This document shows, piece after piece, positions 14,437 through 19,735 of a stretch of DNA of 26,765 bases. The notes under the pieces are model-generated. The model was given only the letters and a program-made list of their open reading frames with translations. It did no database searches and was not told where the DNA came from. A program made the translations under genes and the position numbers. Source of the DNA: a virus; the IMG/VR virus record IMGVR_UViG_3300044959_000358, positions 1 to 26,765 of that record. One strand, written 5' to 3'. The first letter of the stretch is position 1. Each line of letters starts with the position of its first letter.

Positions 14437-17400
14437 TCAGTACGGGCTGAACCAGAATGCCAGCGTCTGCGGTCTGTCCCCACGCTGCCACTCCGGCACC
14501 TCCCAGGCGACCGAGACGCGCGGGTTCCAGTCCTGGAGAGTCTCTTTCATGCGCTCGACGGCCCAAATCAGCGCCCGTACGCTGCGCTCGGCGCCGCTCT
14601 CGACGCCGAGCGCCAGCCCGGCCATCATCTGTTCACCGATCTCATAGAACACGCGGGACGGCGAGGCGATCCCAAGCGTCTCCCTGGCCACGCCGATGGA
14701 CGCTTTCAGCACACTGACGACGGATCTGACCATGGCATCCTGCGCGTTACTGAGTGCTTGTATCACGCCGTCGACAAGCGCAACTCCAATGTCAAGAAAT
14801 TCTGATTTCATCTGGCCCATCAAGTCCTTGATCCGTTCCACCATGTGCTCTACTACCTGAATAATACCCTCGCAGACCTGAGTGATACTCTGAGCTAACT
14901 CTGTGAAGGCATCCACTCCCCTGTTTACCACCTCTCTCCAGCCCTGCTCGAGTGCCGGCAGTGCCAAGCGGATCTGGGCCAGGAAACCAGTCGCCAGCGT
15001 CGCACCGAACTGGTTGAGTGTATTGACGAGGTTCTGTATTGCACCCTCGATGTTGAACGCGTTGATGCTCGCTTGGATCGTTCTCAGTGCCTGGGTGATA
15101 GCATTACTGATCTGCGTAAATGCGGCCACCATGTTCGCGACGTGAGGACTAATGTCCAGAGCTGCAAGTGCGTAGCGGATCGGCTCCACAAGCGCCGGGA
15201 GCGTTTGCCCGAGTATCGAGAGCGTGGTGATCATCTGCATGGCCATTTGGCTCACGTCCAGGGGAGCGAGCGCCTGTTGCCGGAACGCAGCAGCAGCCGC
15301 GGCCACCTGGGCCTGCGCGCTTGCCAGGCCCTGCTGCAACGCTACACCGAGGTTCGGGCCGACCTGGCTCGCTTCCGTCGCGATGCCGCCGAGCTGTTCT
15401 TGGAATGGTGCAAACGTCTCTGGTGCCAGCTTTTGAATCAACGCACGGGCCTGCTCGAGACCCAGTCTAATGCTCTCCAGGAACTGTGGCCCGAATGGGC
15501 TCTGCGTCTGCTGCGGTGTAGCAGGCTCGAAAACCTGCTGTCCGTCGGTTGACTGGGACACCTCGAGGAATGCCGCCTGACCGAGCTGGGCTAGACGGTA
15601 GAGCAGCTCGCTTGCGGTGGCTACTGCCGGAGAGAGTAACTGTCTAACACTCTCTCTGACAGCAGTCGTACCGGCTGCGAGCGCACTGGTCAGTCCCTGG
15701 ACTGCTTGGGTTCCGATATCGGCGAACACGCGGCTAGGCGACCTGATTCCCAGCACGTCCTTTGCCGCGCTGATGGCACTAGAAGCGAGTTCCTGCACGG
15801 CAGAGATAACGCGTGAGATGCCCTCTTTGATAGCATTGACCAGGGCGTCGACGATCTTGTTACCGATCTCGCGGAACTTGTCGACCAGCTCTCTTGCCTT
15901 GCTGACCACCTGCTCGACCATGTCGCGGACGATCTCGATGACCCGGTCGCGCACCTCGCTGATCTTCGTCTTGATGGCCTCCCACGCGCTCTCCACAGCA
16001 CCACGTGCACGCTCCCAGCCCTCGCTCAGGATCTGGTACGCTGTGTTGACGAGCACGCTCAAAATCCCGATGATGATAGTGACTGCTCCCTGTAGGATCC
16101 CCTGCACCATGGTCGTGAAGGCTTGTACGACCTGTTTCGCACCTTCCCATGCCATGCGCCAGTCCCCAGCGAGTAGCGAGATGATTACGGTAAGCACACC
16201 CTGGATCATCTCGCTGACCCCCATGATCAGGCTCGAGATGACTTGCCAGGCGCCCTGGACGATCTGCACTAGGCCCTCGCGGTTGGCGTTTACGAATGCC
16301 ATGATGGCGCTACCGACCGTGCTCAGCACGGACATGATGGTGCTAGCGATAGTGCTGATGAACGACACGACGTTCTGGAATGCCTCCTGCGCAGTGGGCG
16401 CGATCTGCTGTAGCCACTGCGCCCAGTCCTGAAACAGCTGCTGGGCCAGCCCACCAACCGCACTGATCACCGGCTGTGCGGCCTGCATGACGGACGCAAA
16501 TGCACTCTGGAGAACCGAGCCGATCGTGCTCACCGTACTCGAGATGTTCTGAATCGCTGTCTGGGTATGTTGCTGGATATTCCCCCAGTTTTGCATCCAC
16601 GCGACAGCCGCAACTCCCACCGCTGCCGCGATAGCAGCCAGTGCGATGGTGAGCGGCCCACCCAAAAGGCTGACGATCATGGAGATCAGCGGAGTCACAC
16701 CAGCGATTCCGCGCAGAGCGGAAACGAACGTCATCACCGGACTCACCACCGTACCGAGCGCGCTCGCAGCTATCTGAAGACCCGTAAATGCCGCTGCCGC
16801 AGTTGCCAGCATGGGTAGCACAGTCGGGAGCTGGCTCGAAATCGTGCTCACGAGGGTACCGAGAGGTCCTTCCGCTGCACCACCGAGCCGCTGAAGTGCC
16901 GGGATAAGGGTGCCTGTTAGGAAGTTGCCCAACTCCCGAAGTGCCGGCATGGCCTGCTGGAGCGTAGTGGCAATGTTAGCCACCCCCTGGCCTAAGTTGG
17001 CGAAAAACGACCCGTCTCCCTCACCCCTGAGGCCCGCCTTGAACTGTTCGATGGCCGTCATGACCTGTGGGATAAAAGTACCCGACAGCCACCCCAAAAA
17101 CGCTGCCCCGGCCGCCCCGAGCCTAGCGAACAGGCCTTCACCCTCGCCGGTGCGGAACCCAGACCAAAACTGCGCCATCGCCTGGCTGACCGCTGGAACC
17201 ACCGTACCAGTGAGGAACCCCACGAACGCACCCAGCGCGCCACCCAGGCGCCCGACGAAGCTGTCGACGTTTGCCCCCTGAAAGCCAGCGATGAACTCGC
17301 CGATCGCAGCCCGGACCACAGGCAGCACCGCCTGGGCGGTGGTCAACACGCGGTCGAACGCACTCGCGAGTTTTTCGCCTACCGTCGCTGCGAACGCCTC

Positions 17401-18207
17401 GAGTAGGGGCTGATTGGCGGATAGCCAGTCGACGAACTGCCCGAAGGTGCTGCTGAGTCTTTGGAAAAACGCCTCCATGGCTGTCGCCTTCAGCATCTCG
17501 AGCGTGTCGACGAAGGTCGACCAGCGCCCTGACGCGGTCTGCGCTAGGTTTGCTACCAGATCAGTCGATACCCCCATCTGCTGGAGCACACGGTCGACGA
17601 TCTCGAGGGCGGGGACTCCCTCCTCTTTCAGCTGGTTAATGTATTGCCTCGGGAGATTGAAGCGCTCGACGAGGCTCACGAAATCGCCTGATAGGGCTTC
17701 GCGCAAAGCAAACGCAGCCCCCGTCAGACCCTCGGCGGGGTTGAGTGCCGCGAGAAGCTCCGCCCGTTTCACCAGCTCCATGATTTCCAGGCCAGCTGCT
17801 TTCGACGCCGGTAGGAGCATGGTGACCGCCTGTGCCATGTCTTTAAAAGCGAATGGGGTTTGCGCGGCCTCCTGGCGAATGACGGCGAGGAGCCTCGCGG
17901 CTTCTTCCCCAGAACCGGTGAAGGCGGTGAGCGCCGCTCTTGTGTTCTCGAACTGGATGTTCGTCCCGATCAGTGTCTGCCCTATTCCCGACACTGCTCC
18001 AGCCAGGGCTTGCACTCCCATGGCCGCGAGCCCGATCTTGCCCAGAACGTCGGCCAGCCCCTGGAAAGGAGCGGAAACAGCCCCAGCAACCCGCCCTCCG
18101 AGCTCGATCAGTCCCTGGATTGCACCGGCGACGCGGCGCAGCGCATTTTCCGCGCCCGCGGTCTCGGCGTCGACGATGACCTGCAGCTTGGTCACCTGTG
18201 TCGCCAT
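14437..18207 (-). CDS. Tail tape measure protein
   Basis: This 1256-aa protein sets tail length and is ejected with DNA. The N-terminal part is helical (KLQVIVDAETAGAENALRRV). Residues about 80-230 (FENTRAALTAFTGSGEEAAR, TPFAFKDMAQAVTMLLPA) carry the PhageMin_Tail-type pattern. The middle has three imperfect repeats of a roughly 60-residue unit (GAFVGFLTGTVVPAVSQAMA, AFLGWLSGTFIPQVMTAIEQ, LGNFLTGTLIPALQRL) and several hydrophobic helices. The C-terminal part twice contains the motif GIRSPSRVF/GIASPSRVF with EIGEQMMAGL, common at the end of tape measures. The length would predict a tail near 190 nm by the usual 1.5 A per residue rule. The ATG at 18207 has GGAAGGG six bases upstream; it overlaps the second chaperone frame by 16 bases. 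Confidence 0.93.
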   Translation of the reverse strand: MATQVTKLQVIVDAETAGAENALRRVAGAIQGLIELGGRVAGAVSAPFQGLADVLGKIGLAAMGVQALAGAVSGIGQTLIGTNIQFENTRAALTAFTGSGEEAARLLAVIRQEAAQTPFAFKDMAQAVTMLLPASKAAGLEIMELVKRAELLAALNPAEGLTGAAFALREALSGDFVSLVERFNLPRQYINQLKEEGVPALEIVDRVLQQMGVSTDLVANLAQTASGRWSTFVDTLEMLKATAMEAFFQRLSSTFGQFVDWLSANQPLLEAFAATVGEKLASAFDRVLTTAQAVLPVVRAAIGEFIAGFQGANVDSFVGRLGGALGAFVGFLTGTVVPAVSQAMAQFWSGFRTGEGEGLFARLGAAGAAFLGWLSGTFIPQVMTAIEQFKAGLRGEGDGSFFANLGQGVANIATTLQQAMPALRELGNFLTGTLIPALQRLGGAAEGPLGTLVSTISSQLPTVLPMLATAAAAFTGLQIAASALGTVVSPVMTFVSALRGIAGVTPLISMIVSLLGGPLTIALAAIAAAVGVAAVAWMQNWGNIQQHTQTAIQNISSTVSTIGSVLQSAFASVMQAAQPVISAVGGLAQQLFQDWAQWLQQIAPTAQEAFQNVVSFISTIASTIMSVLSTVGSAIMAFVNANREGLVQIVQGAWQVISSLIMGVSEMIQGVLTVIISLLAGDWRMAWEGAKQVVQAFTTMVQGILQGAVTIIIGILSVLVNTAYQILSEGWERARGAVESAWEAIKTKISEVRDRVIEIVRDMVEQVVSKARELVDKFREIGNKIVDALVNAIKEGISRVISAVQELASSAISAAKDVLGIRSPSRVFADIGTQAVQGLTSALAAGTTAVRESVRQLLSPAVATASELLYRLAQLGQAAFLEVSQSTDGQQVFEPATPQQTQSPFGPQFLESIRLGLEQARALIQKLAPETFAPFQEQLGGIATEASQVGPNLGVALQQGLASAQAQVAAAAAAFRQQALAPLDVSQMAMQMITTLSILGQTLPALVEPIRYALAALDISPHVANMVAAFTQISNAITQALRTIQASINAFNIEGAIQNLVNTLNQFGATLATGFLAQIRLALPALEQGWREVVNRGVDAFTELAQSITQVCEGIIQVVEHMVERIKDLMGQMKSEFLDIGVALVDGVIQALSNAQDAMVRSVVSVLKASIGVARETLGIASPSRVFYEIGEQMMAGLALGVESGAERSVRALIWAVERMKETLQDWNPRVSVAWEVPEWQRGDRPQTLAFWFSPY

Positions 18208-18395
18208 CGCCTGCCCTTCCACCCCCGCTCAGCGCGAGCCCGTTCCGCCTTCGCCTCGGCCCCTTCTGCCACGAGTGCCCAGAGGTACCATTCAGCTTCG
18301 CGCTCAAGCAGTGTCCAGGGCGCAACCCCCAGATACCGGGCTGCACGAATAACCCGGTACCACGCTGGCGCCTCCCCCACCGCTCCCTCCGTCAC
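18192..18395 (-). CDS. Tail assembly chaperone, second frame (T-like)
   Basis: This 67-codon frame (VTEGAVGEAPAWYRVIRAAR, YLGVAPWTLLEREAEWYLW) is the small downstream partner of the tail chaperone. It could start at the GTG at 18395, overlapping the G stop as GTGA. More probably it is expressed as a C-terminal extension of G by a -1 frameshift at 18431-18437. The frame is open from that site through the GTG, giving a 184-residue fusion (105 from G plus 79). It sits directly before the tape measure gene, as lambda T does. The Trp-rich centre and basic end are typical of such tails. Confidence 0.75.
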   Translation of the reverse strand: MTEGAVGEAPAWYRVIRAARYLGVAPWTLLEREAEWYLWALVAEGAEAKAERARAERGWKGRRWRHR

Positions 18396-18745
18396 GAGCC
18401 ATCGCTCGAGCTGCCGGCTTTCGGAGCGGAGTTTCCCCCCATGTCCCGCGTGATAGCACCCGCGATTGCCCCGAGCACGCCGATAGGCAGGCGCAGCAGT
18501 GCCTCAGCGGTATGTGGGTACTTTGCCTTCCCATCATAGAGATCCCAGTCGACGATGACGGTCGCGAGAAACTCCGCATAGGCCGGCCCGGCCGCTGCTA
18601 GCCGCCCACTGGCCTCGGCAGCCTCGATGGCGATCAGCTGTTCAGTGGAAATCCGGCCTGGTGCGTAGCGGACAGTCAATTCCTCCCCGTCGATATCGAC
18701 AACGACTTCGCGGGCCTTATTCGTCAGGCGCTTGAGATCTGCCAT
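18392..18745 (-). CDS. Tail assembly chaperone (G-like)
   Basis: This 117-aa protein lies between tail tube and tape measure, the standard place for the chaperone that coats the tape measure during tail assembly. It begins MADLKRLTNKAREVVVDIDG with a beta-strand start (EELTVRYAPGRISTEQL) and then becomes helical. The stop codon overlaps the second chaperone frame. A slippery heptamer lies at codons 104-105. The ATG at 18745 has GAGGGTGAT upstream. Confidence 0.78.
   Translation of the reverse strand: MADLKRLTNKAREVVVDIDGEELTVRYAPGRISTEQLIAIEAAEASGRLAAAGPAYAEFLATVIVDWDLYDGKAKYPHTAEALLRLPIGVLGAIAGAITRDMGGNSAPKAGSSSDGS
18431..18437 (-). other. Programmed -1 frameshift site (G GGA AAC)
   Basis: On the minus strand the G-gene frame reads GGG GGA AAC, so GGGAAAC lies exactly in X XXY YYZ register with zero-frame codons GGA and AAC. 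A -1 slip continues in the frame of the downstream chaperone ORF with no stop in between. Two bases downstream, CCGCTCC (18423-18429) can pair with GGAGCGG (18380-18386). The intervening RNA can form a hairpin CGAGC-GATG-GCTCG (18395-18408). Lambda uses GGGAAAG at the equivalent place. Confidence 0.72.
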
Positions 18746-18754
18746 ACATCACCC

Positions 18755-19735
18755 TCACAGGCTATTCACGTCGTTCACGAGCTTGATCTGTAGCACCTTT
18801 CCCCAGGCCTGGTCGTAGGCGAGCGAGCACGCCCACTGGATAGCGTAGGCGCCATCCTCGTCCGAAAATTCCGCCGAGTCGGCCACCACGATGCAGGCGT
18901 CCATGGTGAACTCGTACCGTGTTGTCCCTTCGATAGTCGGCCCGAGGGCTTTAATCCTGAGAAAGGCCTTGCTGCCCGTACGCATGACGTTCAAGAGTGA
19001 CATCCCTGGACCGTCAGCCTCGATCAGGATGTTCACCTCCGTGTCCGGCTCGGCCTCGTTTACGGCGGCGAACGAGTCGATGTCGGCATCGAGCACCCAG
19101 AGCGGCGAAAAACGGTCGCTGATCTTCCACTCCACGCTGATCGGCCGGATCTTGGTCGTGCCAAGCGTTGTATGGCTCGTATCGAGGTACACCGACACTT
19201 GCGTCGGCAAAATTGGCTCCAGACGGACTGTGCTCGGACTGCTGGTGAGCGTGGCAACTTGTTCCAGCCGTCTGCCGAGCATGGTGCCCTCGATCTCGAT
19301 CTCCTCGCGCGAAATGTTCATGCCGAACTCGGTTACCAGGCCATAGGTGAACCGCTCATTATTGGTACCGTCCCCTTGCTCCACCGTGAAAGTTCTCACG
19401 CTGTCTGGCGCGTTAGCTTTCGGCTCGAAAATCCACTGGTATGCAACGCCGGTGGGCGGGTTCACCTGGGTAGGAGACTGGTAGCCGAGGATCGACGAAA
19501 ACGGGTAAATCAACTCCGTATACGTCGGCGTGCCCGACAGTTCAGCCTCCACCCACTCCTTGCCGACGACCGATATGGTCGGGAACTTGAAACCAGCCGG
19601 CTTGAACTGGCTGGCCTCGATCTCGATCGACTTCTCGATCCCCAGAGCCTGCAGCAACCGGTTGGCTGGTACTGCAGTGCCCGGGGTGGCCTCGACCCCG
19701 ATCTGCACTCGCTGTGCGATAGTTGCCCTGGGCAT
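18755..19735 (-). CDS. Major tail tube protein
   Basis: This 326-aa protein is probably the hexameric tube subunit. It begins MPRATIAQRVQIGVEATPGT, a start shared by many siphovirus tube proteins, and is beta-rich throughout (YTELIYPFSSILGYQ, YQWIFEPKANAPDSVRTFTV, GMNISREEIEIEGTMLGRRL). The region ALGPTIEGTTRYEFTMDACI near the C-terminus is typical of the type. The ATG at 19735 has GGAGGTGAG upstream, just after the terminator stop. Position between tail terminator and chaperones supports the call. Confidence 0.85.
   Translation of the reverse strand: MPRATIAQRVQIGVEATPGTAVPANRLLQALGIEKSIEIEASQFKPAGFKFPTISVVGKEWVEAELSGTPTYTELIYPFSSILGYQSPTQVNPPTGVAYQWIFEPKANAPDSVRTFTVEQGDGTNNERFTYGLVTEFGMNISREEIEIEGTMLGRRLEQVATLTSSPSTVRLEPILPTQVSVYLDTSHTTLGTTKIRPISVEWKISDRFSPLWVLDADIDSFAAVNEAEPDTEVNILIEADGPGMSLLNVMRTGSKAFLRIKALGPTIEGTTRYEFTMDACIVVADSAEFSDEDGAYAIQWACSLAYDQAWGKVLQIKLVNDVNSL

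Follow-up and report, generated by a model that had tools for sequence, protein, structure and literature searches.

The gene pair upstream of the tape measure protein gene in this virus is in all likelihood the G / G-T tail assembly chaperone pair of a long-tailed phage with a programmed -1 frameshift at the slippery heptamer GGGAAAC. This reading is directly supported by the register of the heptamer, by the open frame behind it, by the conservation of the -1 phase and of a heptamer in relatives, by the conservation of the T frame through the overlap and by the gene order. All features of the pair are located on the minus strand of the window, by which we mean the complete stretch of 26,765 nt of viral DNA that was analyzed.

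Organization of the chaperone gene pair

18755..19735, minus strand: probable major tail tube protein gene, adjoining G on its upstream side, assigned by a weak Pfam Phage_tube_2 match and its position
18392..18745, minus strand: G-like tail assembly chaperone ORF, zero-frame product of 117 aa, ATG start, TGA stop at 18392
18192..18437, minus strand: T-like -1 frame, uninterrupted between slip site and stop, the C-terminal part of a predicted 184-aa G-T fusion
14437..18222, minus strand: tape measure protein gene with PHROG tape measure matches, best E 1.2e-65

The gene order is tube - G - T - tape measure. The tape measure gene, identified by a strong match, follows directly downstream of T, overlaps the end of T and is likely to start at an ATG near 18208. 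The tube gene was assigned by position together with a Phage_tube_2 match that lies below the cut-off (E 0.0034). At codon 310 of this gene (326 aa) the lambda heptamer GGGAAAG recurs letter for letter in X XXY YYZ register (18797-18803, minus strand). This is probably a chance occurrence, because the -1 frame at this place stops after about 13 codons.

The G protein of the window gave no Pfam or PHROG match, and among PDB sequences the G profile found only weak, unrelated matches. A few relatives showed weak PHROG chaperone matches (phrog_313, 0.0029). An AlphaFold model of G reached a pLDDT of 81; after residue 103, close to the slip point, it is of low confidence and has no secondary structure. 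The best named viral match to the model in BFVD was a 'Tape measure chaperone' of Serratia phage Scapp (E 1.4e-3, prob 1.0).

The slippery heptamer and the predicted fusion protein

18431..18437, minus strand: slippery heptamer G_GGA_AAC, in X XXY YYZ register in the G frame
18434..18440, minus strand: overlapping heptamer G_GGG_GGA, also in register, directly before GGGAAAC; the whole run is GGGGGGAAAC

The preliminary description had placed GGGAAAC in exact register within the G-like gene and had followed the -1 frame into T as a 184-aa fusion. Both claims were borne out: the heptamer runs from 18437 to 18431, the G frame around it reads ATG GGG GGA AAC TCC, and downstream of it the -1 frame meets its first stop at 18192. 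The heptamer is separated from the TGA of G by 36 bases. GGGAAAC occurs three times in the window compared with 1.5 expected occurrences. In-register heptamers of the type XXX(AAA/TTT)Z were found only twice in the 17 minus-strand ORFs examined (6565 codons), which makes chance an unlikely reason for its place close to the end of G; the probability of finding one within the last ~20 codons of G is about 0.006.

We infer the slippage itself, how often it happens and what the products do as follows. Most ribosomes would terminate at the TGA at 18392 and release G with 117 aa; in a fraction of the passes a backward slip of one base at GGGAAAC very probably yields a longer, fused chaperone. In such a slip the tRNAs of the P and A sites would leave GGA and AAC and re-pair one base back on GGG and AAA, and translation would continue in the -1 frame to yield the 184-aa G-T fusion. 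The lambda model suggests as probable roles a coating of the tape measure protein by G and a recruitment of the tail tube subunit by the T domain of G-T, the less abundant product.

Relatives of the gene pair and conservation of the heptamer

The T-frame protein has 37 relatives in IMG/VR viral contigs. A search of bacterial genomes with the T profile identified six loci, five of them genuine: three in Chloroflexota MAGs, one in a Fimbriimonas MAG and one in a Chthonomonadaceae MAG (Chloroflexota, Armatimonadota type). The sixth, L081, was rejected as spurious, as the match sits over a response-regulator gene, and a phylum search of 400 genomes returned only an already known locus and one further spurious match, L087. 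Viral contigs yielded no relatives when the query was G by itself, the tail tube protein or the N-terminal half of the tape measure protein. One T relative (L078) is located on a 32-kb contig, C324 of G003, with identical 3' fragments of tRNA-Lys(UUU) at 3-32 and 32137-32166. The layout resembles that of an element inserted in a tRNA-Lys gene and assembled between its attachment repeats.

In all relatives T lies in the -1 frame of a G-like gene, with the G-like ORF upstream. This pattern bears on the possibility that a sequencing or assembly error split one continuous G-T gene into two frames. Nothing specific speaks for such an error, and since the same -1 phase recurs at about the same place in all independent relatives we consider it practically negligible.

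The relatives were collected with a query derived from the window, and the set is biased toward T proteins with the sequence AARYLGVA. Conservation of the heptamer was counted in 39 non-redundant loci, including the window, by searching 150 to 60 bases before the AARYLG codons. A slippery heptamer in register was present at a roughly equivalent place in 27 of the 39 loci, compared with 6/39 in each of the other two registers (Fisher P 2.5e-6 for 27/39 against 6/39, one such comparison). Shuffling of synonymous codons of G predicted 4.2 +/- 1.8 of 37 loci with a heptamer, and 24 were observed. The position is mostly -87 to -93 relative to the AARYLG codons. The sequences were CCCAAAC (9 loci), CCCAAAA (7), AAAAAAA (3), GGGAAAA (2), AAAAAAC (2) and four single types including GGGAAAC. 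The window is without near relatives in this set, and GGGAAAN is confined to the window, L007 and L021. A locus found later with another query and without the AARYLGVA seed (L125) has AAAAAAC in register. As the letters and the encoded residues vary together and the register is kept, the sequence comparison indicates that slipperiness in register is the conserved property and not one particular peptide. Absence of the heptamer from homologs had been named in the preliminary description as a result that would speak against the frameshift; the claim passed this test.

In the remaining 12 of the 39 loci no canonical heptamer was found. Several of these have, at about the equivalent place, a run that would allow re-pairing of the P-site tRNA: C_CCT_TCT in L076, C_CCT_TCC in L027, G_GGG_GAA in L035 and L037, and C_CCC_CAA in L014 and L028. 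As substitutes for the canonical heptamer these runs are only suggestive, because they are common in GC-rich DNA. In L023 and L025 the overlap of G with the open T frame comprises only about 16 bases (TGA CCAGCAGGGGAAAGCC TAG), so that a shift, if there is any, must fall within GGGGAAAG, which is off the canonical register.

The last base of the heptamer and the host tRNAs

Across the sites the YYYZ part reads AAAA in 12 cases, AAAC in 12 and AAAG in one. At the lysine sites AAA was used in 12 of 13 cases, compared with 4.5 predicted from the codon usage of the loci themselves (0 of 20,000 simulations). A tRNA-Lys(CUU) is present in four of the five host genomes; we infer that this tRNA would read AAG and could not re-pair on AAA, which might be the reason for the avoidance of AAG. 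We suggest, tentatively and with less than even confidence, that the G-T genes of the viral contigs and of the Chloroflexota/Armatimonadota-type genomes depart from the ending rule of E. coli and use A or C and almost never G as Z, with the slip site fitted to the tRNA set of the host. As Z also opens the following T codon, its choice may in addition be constrained by the T protein. The pairing of L080 (CCCAAAG) with a host lacking tRNA-Lys(CUU) was dropped: the tRNA is present in 14 of 17 genomes of the family of this host, and its absence from the one draft genome is thus probably due to incompleteness. The collected sites provide a natural test of slip-site choice against host tRNAs.

RNA structure downstream of the heptamer

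18380..18429, minus strand: outer 7-bp stem CCGCUCC/GGAGCGG enclosing a 5-bp hairpin CGAGC/GCUCG, candidate stimulator

According to the preliminary description, a 7-bp stem starting two bases downstream of the heptamer encloses a second hairpin and could stimulate the shift. Both elements exist, but the stem begins exactly one base after the heptamer, with the second base as the first paired one, and the proposed function did not hold up well. In favor of a required stimulator are the perfect pairing of the stem and the stability of the 51-nt fold (-25.6 kcal/mol, z -2.1), which is reached at 2.7% of the window positions. However, a 7-bp Watson-Crick stem in this placement occurred in 3.6% of the shuffles and at 4.4% of the window positions, and is thus near chance, and the 81-nt fold was no better than shuffled sequences (z 0.14). 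A spacing of one base moreover would leave much of the stem melted when the heptamer occupies the P and A sites. The stem is absent from the relatives, and no family-wide folding dip at the slip site was found across 27 loci. A conserved or statistically supported structure about 5-9 bases downstream of the slip site was found neither in the window nor across the family as a whole. Taken together, it is rather unlikely that the stem of the window is required for the shift.

In a subset of the relatives another hairpin follows the heptamer at a distance of 6-7 bases, a further point for stimulation by structure. It is present in L005, L013, L076 and L078 and in a less perfect form in L077, L079 and L016, and its arms are partly compensatory (AGCGCCGG/CCGGCGCT, AGCGGCGG/CCGCCGCT, AGCCACCG/CGGTGGCT). 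In this subset 65% of the cells were paired, a value reached by 0/500 shuffles, and the covariation score was reached by 1/500, with relatedness and the R-R-x-L-R-R coding uncontrolled in this comparison. The sequences make it possible that this hairpin, which is absent from the window, acts as a stimulator in those relatives.

Fusion or separate initiation of T

18393..18395, minus strand: GTG overlapping the stop of G (GTGA, 18395-18392), possible but unlikely independent T start
18378..18380, minus strand: second GTG in the T frame, with GGAGG about 6 bases upstream

The preliminary description had also considered an independent start of T at the GTGA overlap, so that both modes might exist. 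The overlap is real, and the second GTG, 15 bases after the GTGA start, has the better ribosome-binding sequence of the two. The start itself is not conserved: of 31 loci compared, just 3 have a GTG where the window has its GTGA, and in 14 loci the T frame lacks any ATG, GTG or TTG from the slip site to AARYLG. In the interval from the slip site to the GTG the T frame shows 47% mean pairwise identity between loci versus 26% and 25% in the other frames, and the variation is concentrated at the third codon positions of T. Alignments of T with its viral relatives mostly begin at residues 1-10, ahead of the GTG at residue 15, and initiation at either GTG of the window would delete a conserved LRRWL stretch. 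The conservation of the T frame upstream of the GTG and the 14 loci without a start indicate that initiation at GTGA is not the conserved mode, and with the loss of LRRWL added, a separate T would be at most a side product.

A frameshift fusion accompanied by some separate T from an internal GTG is compatible with the starts available in the window, one of them behind a good ribosome-binding sequence. As these starts are unconserved and the resulting T would lack its first conserved segment, we regard this combination as improbable. Still less probable is an incidental heptamer, with T only ever made unfused, through coupled re-initiation at GTGA or the GTG at 18380 behind GGAGG. Besides these two signals, L014 and L028 can be cited for it, which have GTGA just ahead of the conserved part of T and no heptamer; but the start-less loci and the loss of LRRWL stand against it, and the conserved in-register heptamer would be left unexplained. 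In L014 and L028 the GTGA overlap lies about 75 bases before the AARYLG codons, and judged from their sequences coupled re-initiation or, alternatively, P-site slippage at C_CCC_CAA may take the place of the heptamer in these two loci.

Comparison with known frameshift systems

The G/G-T frameshift is conserved across a wide range of long-tailed phages; G binds the tape measure there, and T binds the tube protein (PMC5009743). The frameshift predicted for the window is of the kind already known from lambda G/G-T, and the window adds a new member. Both share the order tube - G - T - tape measure and a G-T fusion reached by a -1 shift at an X XXY YYZ heptamer, which lies close to the end of G (PMC5009743, and general knowledge for lambda). 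In contrast to the lambda heptamer GGGAAAG, which ends with AAG, the heptamer of the window ends with AAC. E. coli favors ZZN made up of purines only or of pyrimidines only, AAG being prominent among them (PMC4066793, PMC5009743), and motifs with AAC as ZZN are less efficient there than all-purine ones (PMC4066793).

The HK97 tail assembly chaperone (PDB 2OB9) was the second-ranked PDB fold match to G; the match covers most of G, but is not significant (E 1.8, TM ~0.4). The same heptamer GGGAAAC is the predicted site of the equivalent gene pair gp18/gp19 of Burkholderia phage KL1 (PMC3483164) and the reported g-t site of the haloarchaeal virus HCTV-1 (PMC5009743). In KL1 the site is located immediately upstream of the stop, whereas in the window the 36 bases lie in between. 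Searches with T and G in a collection of 50,697 phage records detected no relatives and no sequence similarity to described phages, those of the KL1/HCTV-1 type included. The lambda-type chaperone frameshift very probably extends to a phage family without relatives among these records, and the comparative evidence is strong enough to annotate the G-T fusion.
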